Of a DNA stretch of 64,000 nucleotides, positions 15,387 through 60,637 are shown piece after piece. How positions within the stretch are numbered: position 1 is the first letter of the stretch; every line of letters begins with the position of its first letter. The DNA comes from Acididesulfobacillus acetoxydans (GTDB lineage: Bacteria > Bacillota > Desulfitobacteriia > Desulfitobacteriales > Desulfitobacteriaceae). Under the pieces are notes generated by a model. The model made no database searches. It had not been told where the DNA came from and worked only from the letters and a program-made list of their open reading frames with translations. The position numbers and the translations under genes are program-made. The stretch spans positions 2,170,001-2,234,000 of the forward strand of contig NZ_LR746496.1 of assembly GCF_902729405.1 (NCBI RefSeq). The letters are read 5' to 3'.

Positions 15387-15605
15387 GGCCCAGGACCATC
15401 CTTCATACGATTCTGCCTTGTGGTCTTTTTGCGGGTTTGTAGGTTTGCTTAACAATGCACGGGGTTTGGCCAAAAGTTTTGGCTGCTGCGTACTTTTTTC
15501 GAAGAAATAGCTGGAACTTAATAATCGACACAATCAACATAATCGACACAATCAGCATAACCGTATAATATGTTTGTGTGATATGCTAGGGTGGGAAGTT
15601 ACTTA

Positions 15606-15736
15606 GATTCCCCTGAAAAAGTCCGTATTTTATAACATCCAGCCAACGCCTCCGCTGGTAAACCCTTTATTCATGCGGGTTGGGTTGGATATCTTTGGCC
15701 GAAATTTCTTCGAATTAGCAGTTTTTCAGGGGACTC
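15606..15736. mobile_element. 131-bp MITE, copy 1
   Basis: Ends GATTCCCCTGAAAAA and (reverse complement) GAGTCCCCTGAAAAA; 6-bp direct repeat TACTTA at 15600-15605 and 15737-15742. It encodes nothing. The ends match those of the 1657-bp DUF772/DDE element at 14 and 13 of 15 positions, so that transposase is the likely driver. It lies directly before the ribosome binding site of the permease gene. Copy 2 is at 37198. Confidence 0.9.
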
Positions 15737-15754
15737 TACTTAGAAGGAGGAAGC

Positions 15755-17002
15755 GTGGTCATCTCAGCAACGATTATCTCAGGCCTCATTCTCACCGCAG
15801 TCTTAATCATCTTTACGCTTGGCAAGAGCCCTGTCTTCCGTGTCGACCGGGCGGGGGCCGCCATCATTGGCGCGACCATGACAGTCGCCACGGGAGTCCT
15901 GACGTTTGCTCAGGCGACAAGGGCTGTGGATTATCGGACTATCATCCTGTTGTTTGCCATGATGCTCATAACCTCTTATATGAACATCATAGGGCTATTT
16001 GAACACCTGAGCAACTGTGCGATGCATAGACTGAAGACCCCCCGGGGCTTACTGGGGGTCGTGATCGTCCTGTCGGGGCTGTTGTCGGCGGTCCTTGTCA
16101 ATGATATCGTCTGCCTGCTTATCACACCGATTATTATTTCAGTCTGTCGTCGGGCAAGAATTAACCCGGTTCCGTATCTGTTAGCCGCAGCAATGGCTTC
16201 CAATATTGGCAGCGCAGCCACACTAATCGGGAATCCGCAAAATATCTTAATCGGCAGCCTTTCCCATCTGGCCTTTGCCTGGTATTCCCTGATCGCTTTG
16301 CCGCTATCGTTAATGGGTCTGCTTTTGACGTATGTCATTTTAGAGAGAGTTTATGCTCAAGAACTTAGGGGGTCCCTTGTGTTCGCCCCTGACCAAGCCG
16401 GCCAAGCCGATCAAGCCGGGGTCAAGCCCCTGCACCGGTTTCTTCTGTTCAAAGGGGTCGTCGTTCTTTTGGGGGTTCTGACAGGATTTTTATTGGGGAT
16501 CGATCCGGCGATCGTCGCCAGCCTGGGCGCTACAGTGCTTCTGATCACGCGGCGTTTGAAACCAAACACGATCTATGAAGGGATCGATTTTAACCTCCTG
16601 GTGATCTTTGTTGGTCTGTTTGTTATCGTCGGAGGTGTTGAGCACAGTGGTTTGCTGAAACGGTTTTTGGGGGAAATAGGCCAAGGTGCTCACTTGCCGG
16701 TTTTTATGCTCCTGACTCTCGTCCTTTCAAATATCGTGAGCAACGTTCCGGCCGTTATGCTGATCAAGTTCGTCATCCCGGCGGCGCACAATTCGGTCTG
16801 GTGGGCCAATCTGGCCTTGTTCAGTACTTTTGCCGGAAACCTGACCATCACGGGGTCCATTGCCAACCTGATCGTGGTAGAAATTGCCAAGAAGAACGGG
16901 ATAACCATTCGCTTTTTCGATCATCTCAGGATCGGCTTTCCGGTTACACTCGTTCTTGTGTTAGTGGGAATGGGGTATTTTAAAGTCCTCTTTGGAGTAT
17001 AG
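15755..17002 (+). CDS. SLC13/ArsB-NhaD-type anion permease
   Basis: 415 residues, about ten to twelve hydrophobic helices, with the ArsB/NhaD/citrate-transporter pattern: a first domain with LVNDIVCLLITPII and ASNIGSAATLIGNPQNILIG, and a repeat-like second domain with LSNIVSNVPAVMLIK and FAGNLTITGSIANLIVVE. These paired hairpin signatures form the substrate site in this fold. The substrate (anion, or H+/Na+-coupled) cannot be told. GTG start after GAAGGAGG. A short run DQAGQADQAG in the central loop comes from a small DNA repeat. The MITE just upstream probably replaced or moved the promoter. Confidence 0.85.
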   Translation: MVISATIISGLILTAVLIIFTLGKSPVFRVDRAGAAIIGATMTVATGVLTFAQATRAVDYRTIILLFAMMLITSYMNIIGLFEHLSNCAMHRLKTPRGLLGVVIVLSGLLSAVLVNDIVCLLITPIIISVCRRARINPVPYLLAAAMASNIGSAATLIGNPQNILIGSLSHLAFAWYSLIALPLSLMGLLLTYVILERVYAQELRGSLVFAPDQAGQADQAGVKPLHRFLLFKGVVVLLGVLTGFLLGIDPAIVASLGATVLLITRRLKPNTIYEGIDFNLLVIFVGLFVIVGGVEHSGLLKRFLGEIGQGAHLPVFMLLTLVLSNIVSNVPAVMLIKFVIPAAHNSVWWANLALFSTFAGNLTITGSIANLIVVEIAKKNGITIRFFDHLRIGFPVTLVLVLVGMGYFKVLFGV

Positions 17003-56969: not shown

Positions 56970-57857
56970 ATGAATAAGAAGGACAACTCCACCTTGGATC
57001 CGCCAGATAGGGGAAGTGTTCTGGCTTTGCCCTGCCACAAATTAGCGGATCACCCCTTGCGCCTCGCTTATTACCATCAAGGCCACCTAAATAGCTTAAC
57101 GCACTCCATCCGAGTCAGTGGGCTCTTGGAACCGATCCTGGTGCAACCTCTGGAAGAGGGCAGCTACCAAATCCTCAATGGACATTACCGGGTACGGGCC
57201 GTACGCCAGTTGCGGCAGAAAACGATCTTGGGCCACGTTTACCCCTGTGACCCGCGTACGGCTTTAATCATCTTTTGTACAGCGAATTTACTCACGAAAG
57301 CTCTCAGTGCCTTAGAAGAGGCCATGATGATGCAAGGGCTGATCCGGGAAGGCGGCTTTAGCCTGGCCGAAGTCGGTGACCTGTGGGGGCACAGCAAGTC
57401 TTGGGTCAGCCGCCGCTTAAAATTGCTCACCGGCTTAGACCTCACGGTGAAGCGGGCCCTGGATGAAGGCCAGCTGAGACCTCGCCTGGCTCAGGAACTC
57501 GCCCGGTTGCCCCAGGGCAACGACCAAAGTCGGGTCATGGCTCTGGTGAGGCGCCTTTACCTGACCAAAGATCAAACGGCCCACCTGATTGACTGGTGGC
57601 AGGAAGCGACGGAAGAGGAACGCCTGCAACTGGAGAAGAAAGGAAAATTGCCGCCCACCGTCAGTCCCCGCACTCTATCCGTGGATCCAGGCCATTACAC
57701 GGCCGAGCTCCTGCGGCGTTCGACCTTGAGTGTGGATGAATTGGCGAACTTCTTAAACCATCTGCAGCCCCCCTTTCCCTGGTGGCCACACTCCACCTAC
57801 CAAACATTCATGCAGGCTGTACAAGGACTCGCCACTCTAGCTCCTCGTAAGTCTTAA
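56970..57857 (+). CDS. ParB-like nuclease-domain/HTH protein linked to a transposase
   Basis: 295 residues. ParBc-like N-terminal domain (LPCHKLADHPLRLAYYHQGHL, then IRVSGLLEPILVQPLEEGSY and ILNGHYRVRAVRQL, the usual NGHxRxxA signature), then the HTH FSLAEVGDLWGHSKSWVSRRLKLL. ATG after AAGGGAGAAGG. The gene ends 10 bp before a DDE transposase, so it is probably a DNA-binding accessory of the element, not chromosome partitioning. Confidence 0.8.
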   Translation: MNKKDNSTLDPPDRGSVLALPCHKLADHPLRLAYYHQGHLNSLTHSIRVSGLLEPILVQPLEEGSYQILNGHYRVRAVRQLRQKTILGHVYPCDPRTALIIFCTANLLTKALSALEEAMMMQGLIREGGFSLAEVGDLWGHSKSWVSRRLKLLTGLDLTVKRALDEGQLRPRLAQELARLPQGNDQSRVMALVRRLYLTKDQTAHLIDWWQEATEEERLQLEKKGKLPPTVSPRTLSVDPGHYTAELLRRSTLSVDELANFLNHLQPPFPWWPHSTYQTFMQAVQGLATLAPRKS

Positions 57858-57867
57858 GGGAGGTGCC

Positions 57868-58724
57868 GTGGTGTATCGTCTGAACCATGAACGACAGAAG
57901 ATTCAGGAATTCAGAAAAACCATCGTCTTAAAGCTTCGGGATTTAGAGCCGGCCGAGCGTTCCCGACTCATTGACGAATTGACTGAAAAGACCTTTTCCA
58001 TTCCCTTTTCCCGTAAAAGAACCTTAAGCCGGTCACTCCTCTACCAATGGCTAAAGGAATACCGGGAAAATCCGGATCAGGGGAAAGCCTTATGGCCCAA
58101 AGAGCGCAAAGACCGGGATACCTTCCGGAATCTAGGGGAAGAACAAAAAGCCGCTTTAAGGACATGGCGCCAAGAAAACACCTATCGCAGTGTCAGCCAG
58201 TTACGTGAAGAACTGATGGCTCATCCGGAAACGAGTACTCCGTCGATCCCTTCGGAATCGACCATTGCCCGCTATTTACGCTCTCTGAGTCTAGACCGTC
58301 ACACCCTAAGGCAACAGGCATCCTCCCCAGCCACAACAACAGCGCCAAAGTCCGGCTTTCCTATGAGTCTCCCTATCCGCAATGGCTCTGGCTGGCGGAT
58401 ACCAAAGGACCTAATCTCTACGTCGTCGATCCGACTCAGCCGGAGAAGACGCGGCTGGCCAAGCCGATCGTATTTATCGACGACTTTGCCCGCTTTGTGG
58501 TTGCGGCCTGGTATGTCTTTGAGGACAATGAAGCGTGGGTCATGCACCTCTTTAGGGGAGCCGTGGCCAACTATGGCATTCCCAATAGTTTGTATGTCGA
58601 CCGAGGTTCTCCGTATATGGGCAAATCCTTAATGCGCTCTGCCACCTTACTGGGCTGTAAACTGATCCATACTTCACCCCAGGATGCCGCTGCCAAAGGT
58701 TATGTTAAGACTTCCGTTATGTAA
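57868..58724 (+). pseudogene. DDE (rve-type) transposase, frameshifted and truncated
   Basis: GTG start after AAGGGAGGTGCC. The first frame (helix-turn-helix and linker, to ~58320) shifts to the next frame, which continues HNNSAKVRLSYESPYPQWLW, then IVFIDDFARFVVAAWYVF and NSLYVDRGSPYMGKSL with two catalytic Asp. It ends at AAAKGYVKTSVM, exactly where the third catalytic residue (Glu of KGxVE) should come, replaced by a mobile element. A one-base indel and a truncation inactivate it. Confidence 0.82.
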
Positions 58725-59290
58725 AGATTTTCGGTGAAATCCTTGAAATAACGAAAGTCCCAACGAGATTTCTTTACATAATCATCTTCGGTTGAATGTT
58801 TTCAGCCACTGTTTCAAATCAGTATTGTTATCCCATTCCGCTGTCTCTGCTGGAACGATTTCTTTACTGGCTGCCTCAATCGCTTCACGTTTTCGCCTCG
58901 CATCTGCTTTTCCGTACACCTCCGTTGTTTTAACACTGACATGGCCAAGCAAATCCCGTATGTAAATCAAATCCACCCCGGAATCTACAAGCCCATTGAT
59001 TCGGAAAAAGTCGTGTAGTTCTGCAGTTCCATCCAATTAGCGAGATTTTCCCATTCTGCTTTGATTCTGCCGAGGTGTATAGCGGCATACTCCCGACTGT
59101 TTAGCTCGTCTTCGCATAAAGAAACCAATGTTTTAAAGTCAGTTACCATAAATCAAACCCTCCTTGATGTTTTGATCTATGAGTAACACTTCCTGATTAT
59201 TATGTAAAGATATATAACACCAAAACAGGGTGCTTCCGCATTTTGGAATCGCATTTCTTTACATAACGGAAGTCTTAACATAACCTTTGG
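58693..59290. mobile_element. Small tyrosine-recombinase element with 35-bp inverted repeats
   Basis: Positions 58693-58727 and 59256-59290 are perfect inverted repeats of 35 bp. Each end also holds an inverted pair TTATGTAAAGA...TCTTTACATAA (58717-58727/58771-58781 and 59200-59210/59256-59266) spaced 43 and 45 nt, a layout expected for recombinase core sites. Inside lies a tyrosine-recombinase gene with its middle deleted. Both flanks are DDE transposases cut at KGYV. The outer ~12 bp (AAAGGTTATGTT) are read as part of both transposases, so the true element may begin a little further in. Confidence 0.7.
58782..59151 (-). pseudogene. Tyrosine recombinase (phage-integrase family), internally deleted
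   Basis: An ATG at 59151 starts an N-terminal core-binding-like segment (DFKTLVSLCEDELNSREY, AEWENLANWM) of 54 codons. An overlapping frame gives the catalytic C-terminal end VDLIYIRDLLGHVSVKTTEVY, with the LGH motif and the Tyr nucleophile, then an Arg/Lys-rich tail. The first catalytic Arg, Lys and His segments are missing, so it is a non-functional deletion derivative. Confidence 0.75.
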
Positions 59291-60059
59291 ATTCTGCGGC
59301 ATATGGCCTTGCATAGAGTAAACGGATGCCAAGTTTGGAGCAGGTTCGGCTCATTGCTTTGGTTCTATACTGCTTTCCGTTATCAAAGAACACCCCCTGC
59401 GGCAATCCCCACTTTTGAATAGCCATTCGAAAACAGTCTTCCACGATCATTTGATCAAGGGTCGGATAGAAGGCCCCATGCAACACATGCCGTGTCGCAT
59501 CATCTATGAAGGTGACCAGATACACTTGTTTCATGGAGCCTTTGAGGCCAATCGGAAGGTATGGGCCAAATTTGATATCGGATTGCCATAATTGATTACG
59601 ATGCCGCTTTTGAAAACGTCGGGAAGCGATGTCTGTACTGGCATACATCCGCATCTGGCGCGTGCTGTAACCGCGCTCTGTGAGTTTTTCCTGCAAGGTG
59701 GAGCGTTTGAGTTCTCCAGGGTTCGCTTTGCCTTCCCATTCTAAGATCTGAATGATCTGGGCAATGCTCCGGCGGGGTACCTCCCGACGCAACAGAATCG
59801 CTTGTTCCAGAAGCTCTGGGGCGATCGTCTCCGTTGGTTTTCGACCTTTTCCTTGGGGTTTGAGACCCTCAAATCCCTTTTGATGATAAGTCTCTAAGTA
59901 ACGCCGTAGGGTTCGCTCGGAAATTCCGTGGGCAAGGCACAGTTGGTACTTGAGCTCCCGTGCTTTGGCCGGATCGAGCCCTTCCGTCAGGAGAGGCGAC
60001 AAAAGCTGAACACGCTCGGCCGCAATCTCCTCGGCTTTTCTTTGATCTTTCATCCGCAA
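59259..60059 (-). pseudogene. DDE (IS481-like) transposase, 3'-truncated
   Basis: 266 codons. N-terminal helix-turn-helix LCLAHGISERTLRRYLETYHQKG and LKPQGKGRKP, then the DDE core with QLWQSDIKFGPYLP (first Asp), VYLVTFIDDATRHVLHG and GVFFDNGKQY (second Asp). It ends AAESKGYVKTSVM: the catalytic Glu of KGxVE is replaced by the recombinase element. It belongs with the DUF6431 gene just upstream. Confidence 0.82.
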
Positions 60060-60103: not shown

Positions 60104-60637
60104 TCAGGCGTTTCCGGACAGAAATGCAGAACGGGTCTGTACCCAGGAATTTGTGTTGACGAGGGGGCGGACAATTCTCGCCAGCCAACCGGATGTATGT
60201 CCAACGTAAAGTCCAATTCTTTGGTGTGCAGAAAGTGTGGGGACGGACGGCTCCTCCACAGGGTCTTGCCCAAGACGAATCGCAATGGCATTTAAACAGC
60301 TCAGAAAATACGGGAGGATCGTGATAAACCACACTCGCAGACGGTACAATGTGGCATTATCTGCCGCAACGTCGGTAGGCTCAGAACCCTCCAGAACGAC
60401 GCATTCGATACAGGAAGATTCATAACGTTTGTAGGGCACGATACAGTCAGGCAGTTCGTGATGAATTCGCCTGCACTGCGCACAACGCAATCTACGAATG
60501 ATTAGCACCCGGGTTTGCCCAGAACGGGTTTTTATTTTCCTTCTTCGACTTCCGATGACGCTGAGCTGTTCTCCGCAGCAAGGACAAGGGACGGACTCTG
60601 CACACCTAACAAAAAACTTTAGTAAGGGGGTCTTCAA
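60104..60637 (-). CDS. DUF6431-type zinc-finger protein of the DDE element
   Basis: 177 residues from TTG 60637. Zinc motif VPCPCCGEQLSVIGSRRRK and second pair LRCAQC, then RIHHELPDCIVPYKRYESS, the typical DUF6431 sequence. It lies 44 bp upstream of the DDE transposase on the same strand, the common pairing. Probably a DNA-binding accessory. Confidence 0.75.
   Translation of the reverse strand: MKTPLLKFFVRCAESVPCPCCGEQLSVIGSRRRKIKTRSGQTRVLIIRRLRCAQCRRIHHELPDCIVPYKRYESSCIECVVLEGSEPTDVAADNATLYRLRVWFITILPYFLSCLNAIAIRLGQDPVEEPSVPTLSAHQRIGLYVGHTSGWLARIVRPLVNTNSWVQTRSAFLSGNA

Follow-up and report, generated by a model that had tools for sequence, protein, structure and literature searches.

Recombinase in trio (RIT) elements carry the tandem genes ritA-ritB-ritC, are about 3.5 kb long and end in inverted repeats of 28-34 bp that contain palindromic sequence (PMC3414803; PMC2864759). 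They have been reported on plasmid pHG1 (PMC3414803), and published insertions include one in the radC gene of Tn6054 and one that interrupts the transposase of a Tn6049-like transposon in Acidithiobacillus ferrooxidans (both PMC3414803), besides one in an IS66 tnpA gene (PMC2864759). A table from 2023 gives RIT target specificity as "not formally tested" (PMC10214605). RIT elements are widespread, and the family is already known and little studied; the part of this work that appears to be new is the rule by which its members choose their targets. In the openly readable RIT literature we did not find a common active-site rule, the anatomy of a palindrome with two spacers described below, or target heritability, part of which may be in print.

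The DNA analysed here (the window) is a stretch of 64,000 nucleotides from Acididesulfobacillus acetoxydans. The first-pass annotation placed an element between two convergent transposase genes that are both cut at the motif of the catalytic Glu. We confirmed this at window positions 58693-59290, where two rve-type DDE transposase genes, here called tpase1 and tpase2, converge on a 598-bp element of RIT type and retain only their 5' halves. As the annotation had also seen, each gene ends ...KGYVKTSVM-stop with codons read from the element. The features of the locus are as follows.

56970-57857, plus strand: ParB-like gene (domain matches to HTH_ParB and ParB_N), directly upstream of tpase1
57868-58699, plus strand: tpase1, 5' part of an rve-domain DDE transposase gene, cut after AAAKG; the catalytic Glu motif is KGKCE in an intact relative (L144)
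58694-58699, plus strand: CAAAGG, 6-bp spacer/target at the left (RitC-side) end and K-G codons of tpase1; also duplicated around the full copy
58700-58727, plus strand: left terminal inverted repeat of the RIT element, 28 bp, TTATGTTAAGACTTCCGTTATGTAAAGA
58771-58781, minus strand: inner inverted recombinase-site-like repeat of the left end, TCTTTACATAA
58782-58997, minus strand: RitC C-terminal remnant, residues 228-298, including the catalytic Tyr region GHVSVKTTEVY
58989-58994, no strand: deletion point with a 6-bp overlap; 5.97 kb of the full RIT element gone
58995-59149, minus strand: RitA N-terminal remnant, about 51 codons
59200-59210, plus strand: inner inverted recombinase-site-like repeat of the right end, TTATGTAAAGA
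59256-59283, minus strand: right terminal inverted repeat of the RIT element, 28 bp
59284-59289, minus strand: CCTTTG (CAAAGG on the minus strand), spacer abutting the 5' half of tpase2
59284-60059, minus strand: tpase2, 5' part of a Tn6049-like rve DDE transposase gene, cut after AESKG; KGKIEKF is read across the joined flanks of the full copy
60104-60637, minus strand: DUF6431 gene of the tpase2 transposon

The ends of the element had been described as 35-bp inverted repeats. A perfect 35-bp repeat is indeed present (58693-58727 and 59256-59290), but just 28 bp of it derive from the element; the remainder is the 6-bp crossover/target spacer CAAAGG and an outer C, whose match between the two sides is due to chance. 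The paired TTATGTAAAGA sites were found as claimed, at 58717 and 59200, with inverted partners that end at 58781 and 59266. Between the ends lies a recombinase remnant that matches PF00589 weakly and is 99% identical to RitC residues 228-298 of a full copy described below. It had been taken for a deletion derivative of a recombinase gene, and a 5.97-kb deletion did occur; however, the product fuses the N-terminus of RitA to the C-terminus of RitC and does not derive from one gene. The deletion removed the rest of ritA, all of ritB, the rest of ritC and two ISs. Published RIT elements have three recombinase genes, whereas the window copy retains fragments of RitA and RitC; 58693-59290 is a 0.6-kb deletion derivative of a RIT element and is predicted to be non-autonomous.

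The two transposases had been called unrelated. We found 28% identity over 114 aa (E 3e-14), and this alignment marks them as distant homologues. The tpase1 gene is also frameshifted near 58340, upstream of the element (ORFs 57868-58632 and 58497-58724). The ParB-like gene in front of it (56970-57857) is probably a component of the tpase1 transposon; it is an unusual companion for an rve transposase.

A search of the genome with the window element returned a full copy, whose existence the first-pass annotation had predicted. This 6.6-kb copy lies at G000:C1:1354289-1360857 (locus L012) in a tpase2-type transposase gene that is interrupted at the same codon as tpase2 of the window, and a DUF6431 gene is again found upstream (L012:5943-6476). 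The window element is 100% identical to it over the left 302 bp and 99% identical over the right 301 bp. Finding a full copy elsewhere in the genome excludes chance as the source of the window structure. L012:7379-13718 encodes RitC (298 aa), RitB and RitA (416 aa); an IS3-type insertion splits ritB, and another of IS256/Mutator type lies between ritB and ritC. The three proteins each have PF00589 or the RHxxR...GH...Y signature, and all are tyrosine recombinases. The stop codon of ritA overlaps the probable start of ritB as ATGA (L012 near 12470), and the order ritA-ritB-ritC recurs in most of the 20 RIT relatives fetched. The best pHG1 matches of the three proteins are their namesakes (RitA 30%, RitB 29% and RitC 30% identity). 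Gene order, PF00589 domains, the ATGA overlap, inverted ends and the matches to the pHG1 namesakes together identify the element as RIT. Near-identical IS3-family copies are present at L012:10922-12195 (inside ritB) and 15572-16845, about 3.4 kb apart. Comparison within genomes also revealed identical RIT copies at two sites of one genome in three cases (L049/L050, L053/L054 and L136/L137), which is comparative evidence for mobility. A RIT with an 83%-identical RitC occurs on a contig binned as Bacteroidales (L063, JAAYKX010000196.1), which may be a recent lateral transfer or a binning error.

The RIT ends consist of 28-bp inverted repeats plus a 6-bp spacer. CAAAGG is duplicated around the full copy (L012:7291 and 13879), and when the flanks are joined at this repeat the sequence ...YAAESKGKIEKFNRLVDAF... 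gives an open frame that reads KGKIEKF. An intact relative of 86% identity (in G006) has the uninterrupted site ...YAAESKGKVEKFNRLIDAF..., which reads KGKVEKF. As the joined flanks and the intact site show, the insertion targets KG in KGxxE, the motif with the third catalytic residue. KGYV, the target motif proposed earlier, must be shortened accordingly: only KG (within KGK[IVC]E) belongs to the transposase, and Y and V are encoded by the end of the element (TTATGTT). The missing 3' halves of the transposases were recovered in part. For tpase2 the 3' half was found at the full copy and the empty site in G006. The 3' half of tpase1 was sought in the source genome and not found; the sole intact tpase1 relative among 61 genomes (L144) has DGAAKGKCERAF at the corresponding position.

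We then surveyed the targets of RIT relatives drawn from 151 kin genomes, 80 named public-genome loci and further contigs and plasmids, all loci being found through similarity to one RitC subfamily. The interrupted gene was identified from its two halves, and Pfam served as an independent check that confirmed most assignments; L108, L125, L083, L110, L161 and L163 lack a Pfam match and were assigned by reading the sequence. A target could be named for 69 insertions, chiefly in Bacillota and Bacteroidota, distributed as follows.

Tn6049-like rve transposase: 7 insertions, five at KG.xE, one at D1 and one at D2
IS21 IstA: 10 insertions, eight at the Glu motif and one at the second Asp
IS21 IstB: 11 insertions, nine at Walker A
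IS66: 6 insertions
IS4-type: 5 insertions, all at the catalytic-Glu motif (YxKRWxIE in most)
Group II intron reverse transcriptase (RT): 8 insertions, all at PQGG
Tyrosine recombinase: 3 insertions, two at RHxxR and one chimera at the catalytic Tyr
Serine recombinase: 1 insertion
Topoisomerase III: 4 insertions, three at Toprim EKPS
RadC: 2 insertions (L125, L131), at HNHPSG
Amidoligase: 3 insertions, at GIHxHxD
C5-methyltransferase: 2 insertions, one at PCQ
AbiEii, ParA-type ATPase, ORF6N-like genes and small DUFs: 7 insertions together

Enzymes of transposition or recombination made up 51 of the 69 targets, compared with 1 of 18 control ORFs located 4-8 kb from RIT elements. Most of the insertions are at motifs of active sites or of nucleotide binding; the broader class of conserved motifs in mobile-DNA genes is partly the analyst's own grouping. 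On plasmids, further targets are IS110 (KRNKTDAADAEA), IS256 (immediately ahead of the Glu), IstB at Walker B and strawberry-notch helicases; on pHG1 of Cupriavidus necator H16 an IS66 transposase is cut between SNNAV and E, adjoining nested RITs. The published insertions in a Tn6049-like transposase, radC and IS66 tnpA agree with the same rule. Two RITs (L170 and L161) sit in tyrosine-recombinase genes, one at LRHS and one as the chimera at the catalytic Tyr, so that recombinase elements here strike their own enzyme superfamily.

The idea that the element recognises a conserved site in transposase genes, as a parasite of other transposons, therefore extends well beyond this locus, but its targets are not confined to DDE transposases. 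The survey suggests a specialised parasite of other jumping genes; however, 18 of the 69 targets are non-transposition genes (topoisomerase III, RadC, methyltransferase, amidoligase, AbiEii, ParA and DUFs), and "parasite of transposons" is thus too narrow. About ten flanked elements (L056, L074, L113, L164, L174 and others) had no recognisable target. L056 had been a candidate for insertion in a serine recombinase and was rejected, its flanks being two different genes (ArdA and a serine recombinase). The source genome has at least nine near-identical group II intron RT genes of 494 aa, all uninterrupted; related RIT lineages target that gene.

Within a gene family the cuts fell at nearly the same place. 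Cuts clustered within 6 Pfam profile positions for 8 of 11 IstB, 8 of 8 RVT_1 and 4 of 4 DDE_Tnp_1 insertions, and in 200,000 random draws such clustering was reached 0, 0 and 12 times, respectively; for some RT and IstB loci (L052, L054, L134, L136, L059, L086 and L247) the position was set by the motif and not by Pfam. On the profiles the cuts lie at 102-106 of 238 (IstB), 122-125 of 205 (RVT_1) and 164-167 of 200 (DDE_Tnp_1), at 267-268 (three), 154-156 (two) and 73 in IS66, at 3-8 in Toprim and at 109-111 in the amidoligase. Across 15 uninterrupted IstB genes, no 18-nt DNA window is more conserved than the Walker A stretch. PQGG of RVT_1 ranks 135 of 1360 windows at its centre, which is in the top tenth and is not the most conserved part of the RT gene. 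Such motifs may be targeted because few DNA stretches vary as little in genes that occur in many copies and move laterally, as with inteins and homing elements. We counted 20 target changes on a RitC tree (51 leaves, 11 target classes), whereas 2000 shuffles gave 36.2 on average and never fewer than 31. This indicates that target choice is inherited with the recombinases.

Aligned ends gave the anatomy of an integrated RIT as T1-[N6]-L=RIT=R-[M6']-P-[N6]-T2, where the inverted repeats L and R measure 28-35 bp, N6 is target sequence that recurs on either side and M6' is a third copy of the spacer that may differ from N6. P is a near-perfect palindrome of 20-22 bp (consensus NTTATGNAAAGCTTTNCATAAN) found beside one end in about 40 elements, and most elements show both the 6-bp target duplication and the palindrome. 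Roughly half of the elements carry P next to the RitA end, the others next to the RitC end. Relative to the target its side is constant within a target class: P is 3' of the target in 7/7 Tn6049/IstA-Glu, 6/6 IstB Walker A, 3/3 amidoligase and 3/3 IS4 cases, and 5' of it in 6/6 RT cases. We infer that the product excised by RitA, RitB and RitC would be circular, R-[M']-P-[N]-L, with interchangeable crossover sites at its two junctions, and that either site could recombine with a target at the 6-bp spacer. Because such a circle has two equivalent sites, the RIT body could land in either orientation while P keeps its fixed side of the target. In the IS21 istA insertion L043, N is GAAGGG and M is CAAAGG, the Tn6049-type target spacer of its close relative L012; the middle spacer is possibly a record of the previous insertion site.

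We also looked in the elements for a guide sequence matching their own target and found no preference (score 9.6 for own targets versus 9.1 for other targets). The top-scoring matches proved to be half-sites of the P palindrome or short coincidences, and a guide was rejected. Dyad-symmetric arms of the dif/loxP kind were not seen in the targets (mean background fraction 0.67 over 19 sites). With neither dyad symmetry in the target nor a matching guide in the element, the site is probably recognised by protein. Our guess is that the three recombinases might correspond to three kinds of half-site (L/R, P and target).

The window copy departs from this anatomy. P and the 3' half of tpase2, which follow the right end in the full copy, are missing, and R-[CCTTTG] abuts the reversed tpase2 directly. 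We propose that the R end of a RIT in tpase1 would have recombined with a tpase2 site lying the opposite way round; alternatively, its partner may have been a RIT copy already inserted at the tpase2 site. Either way two 5' transposase halves would come to face one RIT, which an internal deletion would then have shortened to 598 bp. Similar two-headed structures were found at L163, L161 and on pHG1. In L163:1238-5736 the RIT lies between inverted duplicate 5' halves of a Tn6049-like transposase cut at the first catalytic Asp (LWQSD). In pHG1 (L249:8345-17678) a RIT is nested in the ritC of another RIT at TPHTLRH, and the ritA-ritB-ritC' part of the host RIT flanks it on either side as inverted duplicate copies.

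The two-headed form fits use of the second crossover site, and it equally fits ordinary homologous recombination. An assembly or duplication artefact, or homologous recombination of two RIT copies through their 28-bp inverted ends, has a little less than an even chance of accounting for the window structure: recombination of the R end of one copy with the L end of another in opposite orientation would yield exactly the window sequence, and the inner ends of the window element are 99-100% identical to those of the full copy. However, the contig is a single 4.5-Mb chromosome, which argues against an artefact, and two-headed forms recur in unrelated bacteria (L163, L161 and pHG1). The earlier suggestion of recombination between two inserted copies is plausible and unproven; we searched the source genome for the reciprocal T2-P-T2 junction and it was absent.

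However the chimera formed, the targeting rule is independent of it, and two other explanations bear on that rule. RIT might insert at one DNA word, an AARGG-like spacer, wherever it occurs, and the bias to mobile genes would then reflect their abundance and dispensability. Many spacers are AAAGG, AAAAGG or GAAGGG, including those in AbiEii FKGGT and IstB ELKGES, and mobile genes tolerate insertion. Nevertheless, we consider a single word unlikely, as other RIT lineages have unrelated spacers (CGCCAT, CACCAT, ATTCTT, CGCAGA and GTGGGT) and still hit conserved motifs, a 6-bp word would scatter over each gene where the observed cuts stack at one profile position, and control ORFs 4-8 kb away are seldom mobile-element enzymes. 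Insertion might instead be unselective, with insertions in catalytic motifs surviving since they inactivate the host transposon and spare the host. The listed insertions do interrupt their target genes and should inactivate the products, but a transposase gene is inactivated equally by insertion at any point in its first two thirds, so selection for inactivation cannot pile insertions up on the same codons, and the reuse of spacers and the phylogenetic clustering by target point to recognition. We regard survival as a very improbable cause of the pattern.

Our preferred reading is that the window element is a RIT deletion derivative and that the RIT family, by means of a two-site circle, targets the most conserved coding motifs, mostly those of active sites or nucleotide binding, in enzymes of other mobile DNA, to which we assign a probability of about 0.78. 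We lean, with less assurance, to the wider view that RIT elements are bacteria-wide, active-site-seeking hyperparasites whose recognition can evolve and tracks conserved protein motifs through unrelated mobile-element enzymes, whose circle carries two crossovers around a palindrome, and which retain the spacer of their previous home. A sequence rule of conserved motif codons and clade-specific targets makes the open questions on RIT targets, on the need for three recombinases and on movement testable. Under this rule transposases, IstB ATPases and group II intron RTs would be inactivated by a natural layer of parasites, and clade-specific natural targets of tyrosine recombinases are useful for learning how specificity is encoded and changed.

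RIT elements resemble GInt/SE elements in having tandem tyrosine-recombinase genes, site-specific insertion and core sites at the ends (PMC5385486, PMC10214605). GInt/SE elements differ in carrying four-gene sets with cargo, whereas between the RIT ends of L012 we found two ISs besides the trio and no further gene of its own (ginD or cargo). Tn554 is a tyrosine-recombinase transposon with a conserved target in radC, and some RIT copies (L125 and L131) are likewise in radC. However, Tn554 has TnpA, TnpB and a non-recombinase TnpC and one fixed target, while RIT has three tyrosine recombinases; the L012 genes are all of this kind and their target is a DDE transposase. Inteins and homing introns reside in widespread genes, at the codons of their best-conserved active-site motifs, and RIT elements also lie at codons of conserved active-site motifs. 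The difference is that inteins and homing introns use a homing endonuclease and splice out, so that the host gene works, whereas RIT uses recombinases and destroys the gene.
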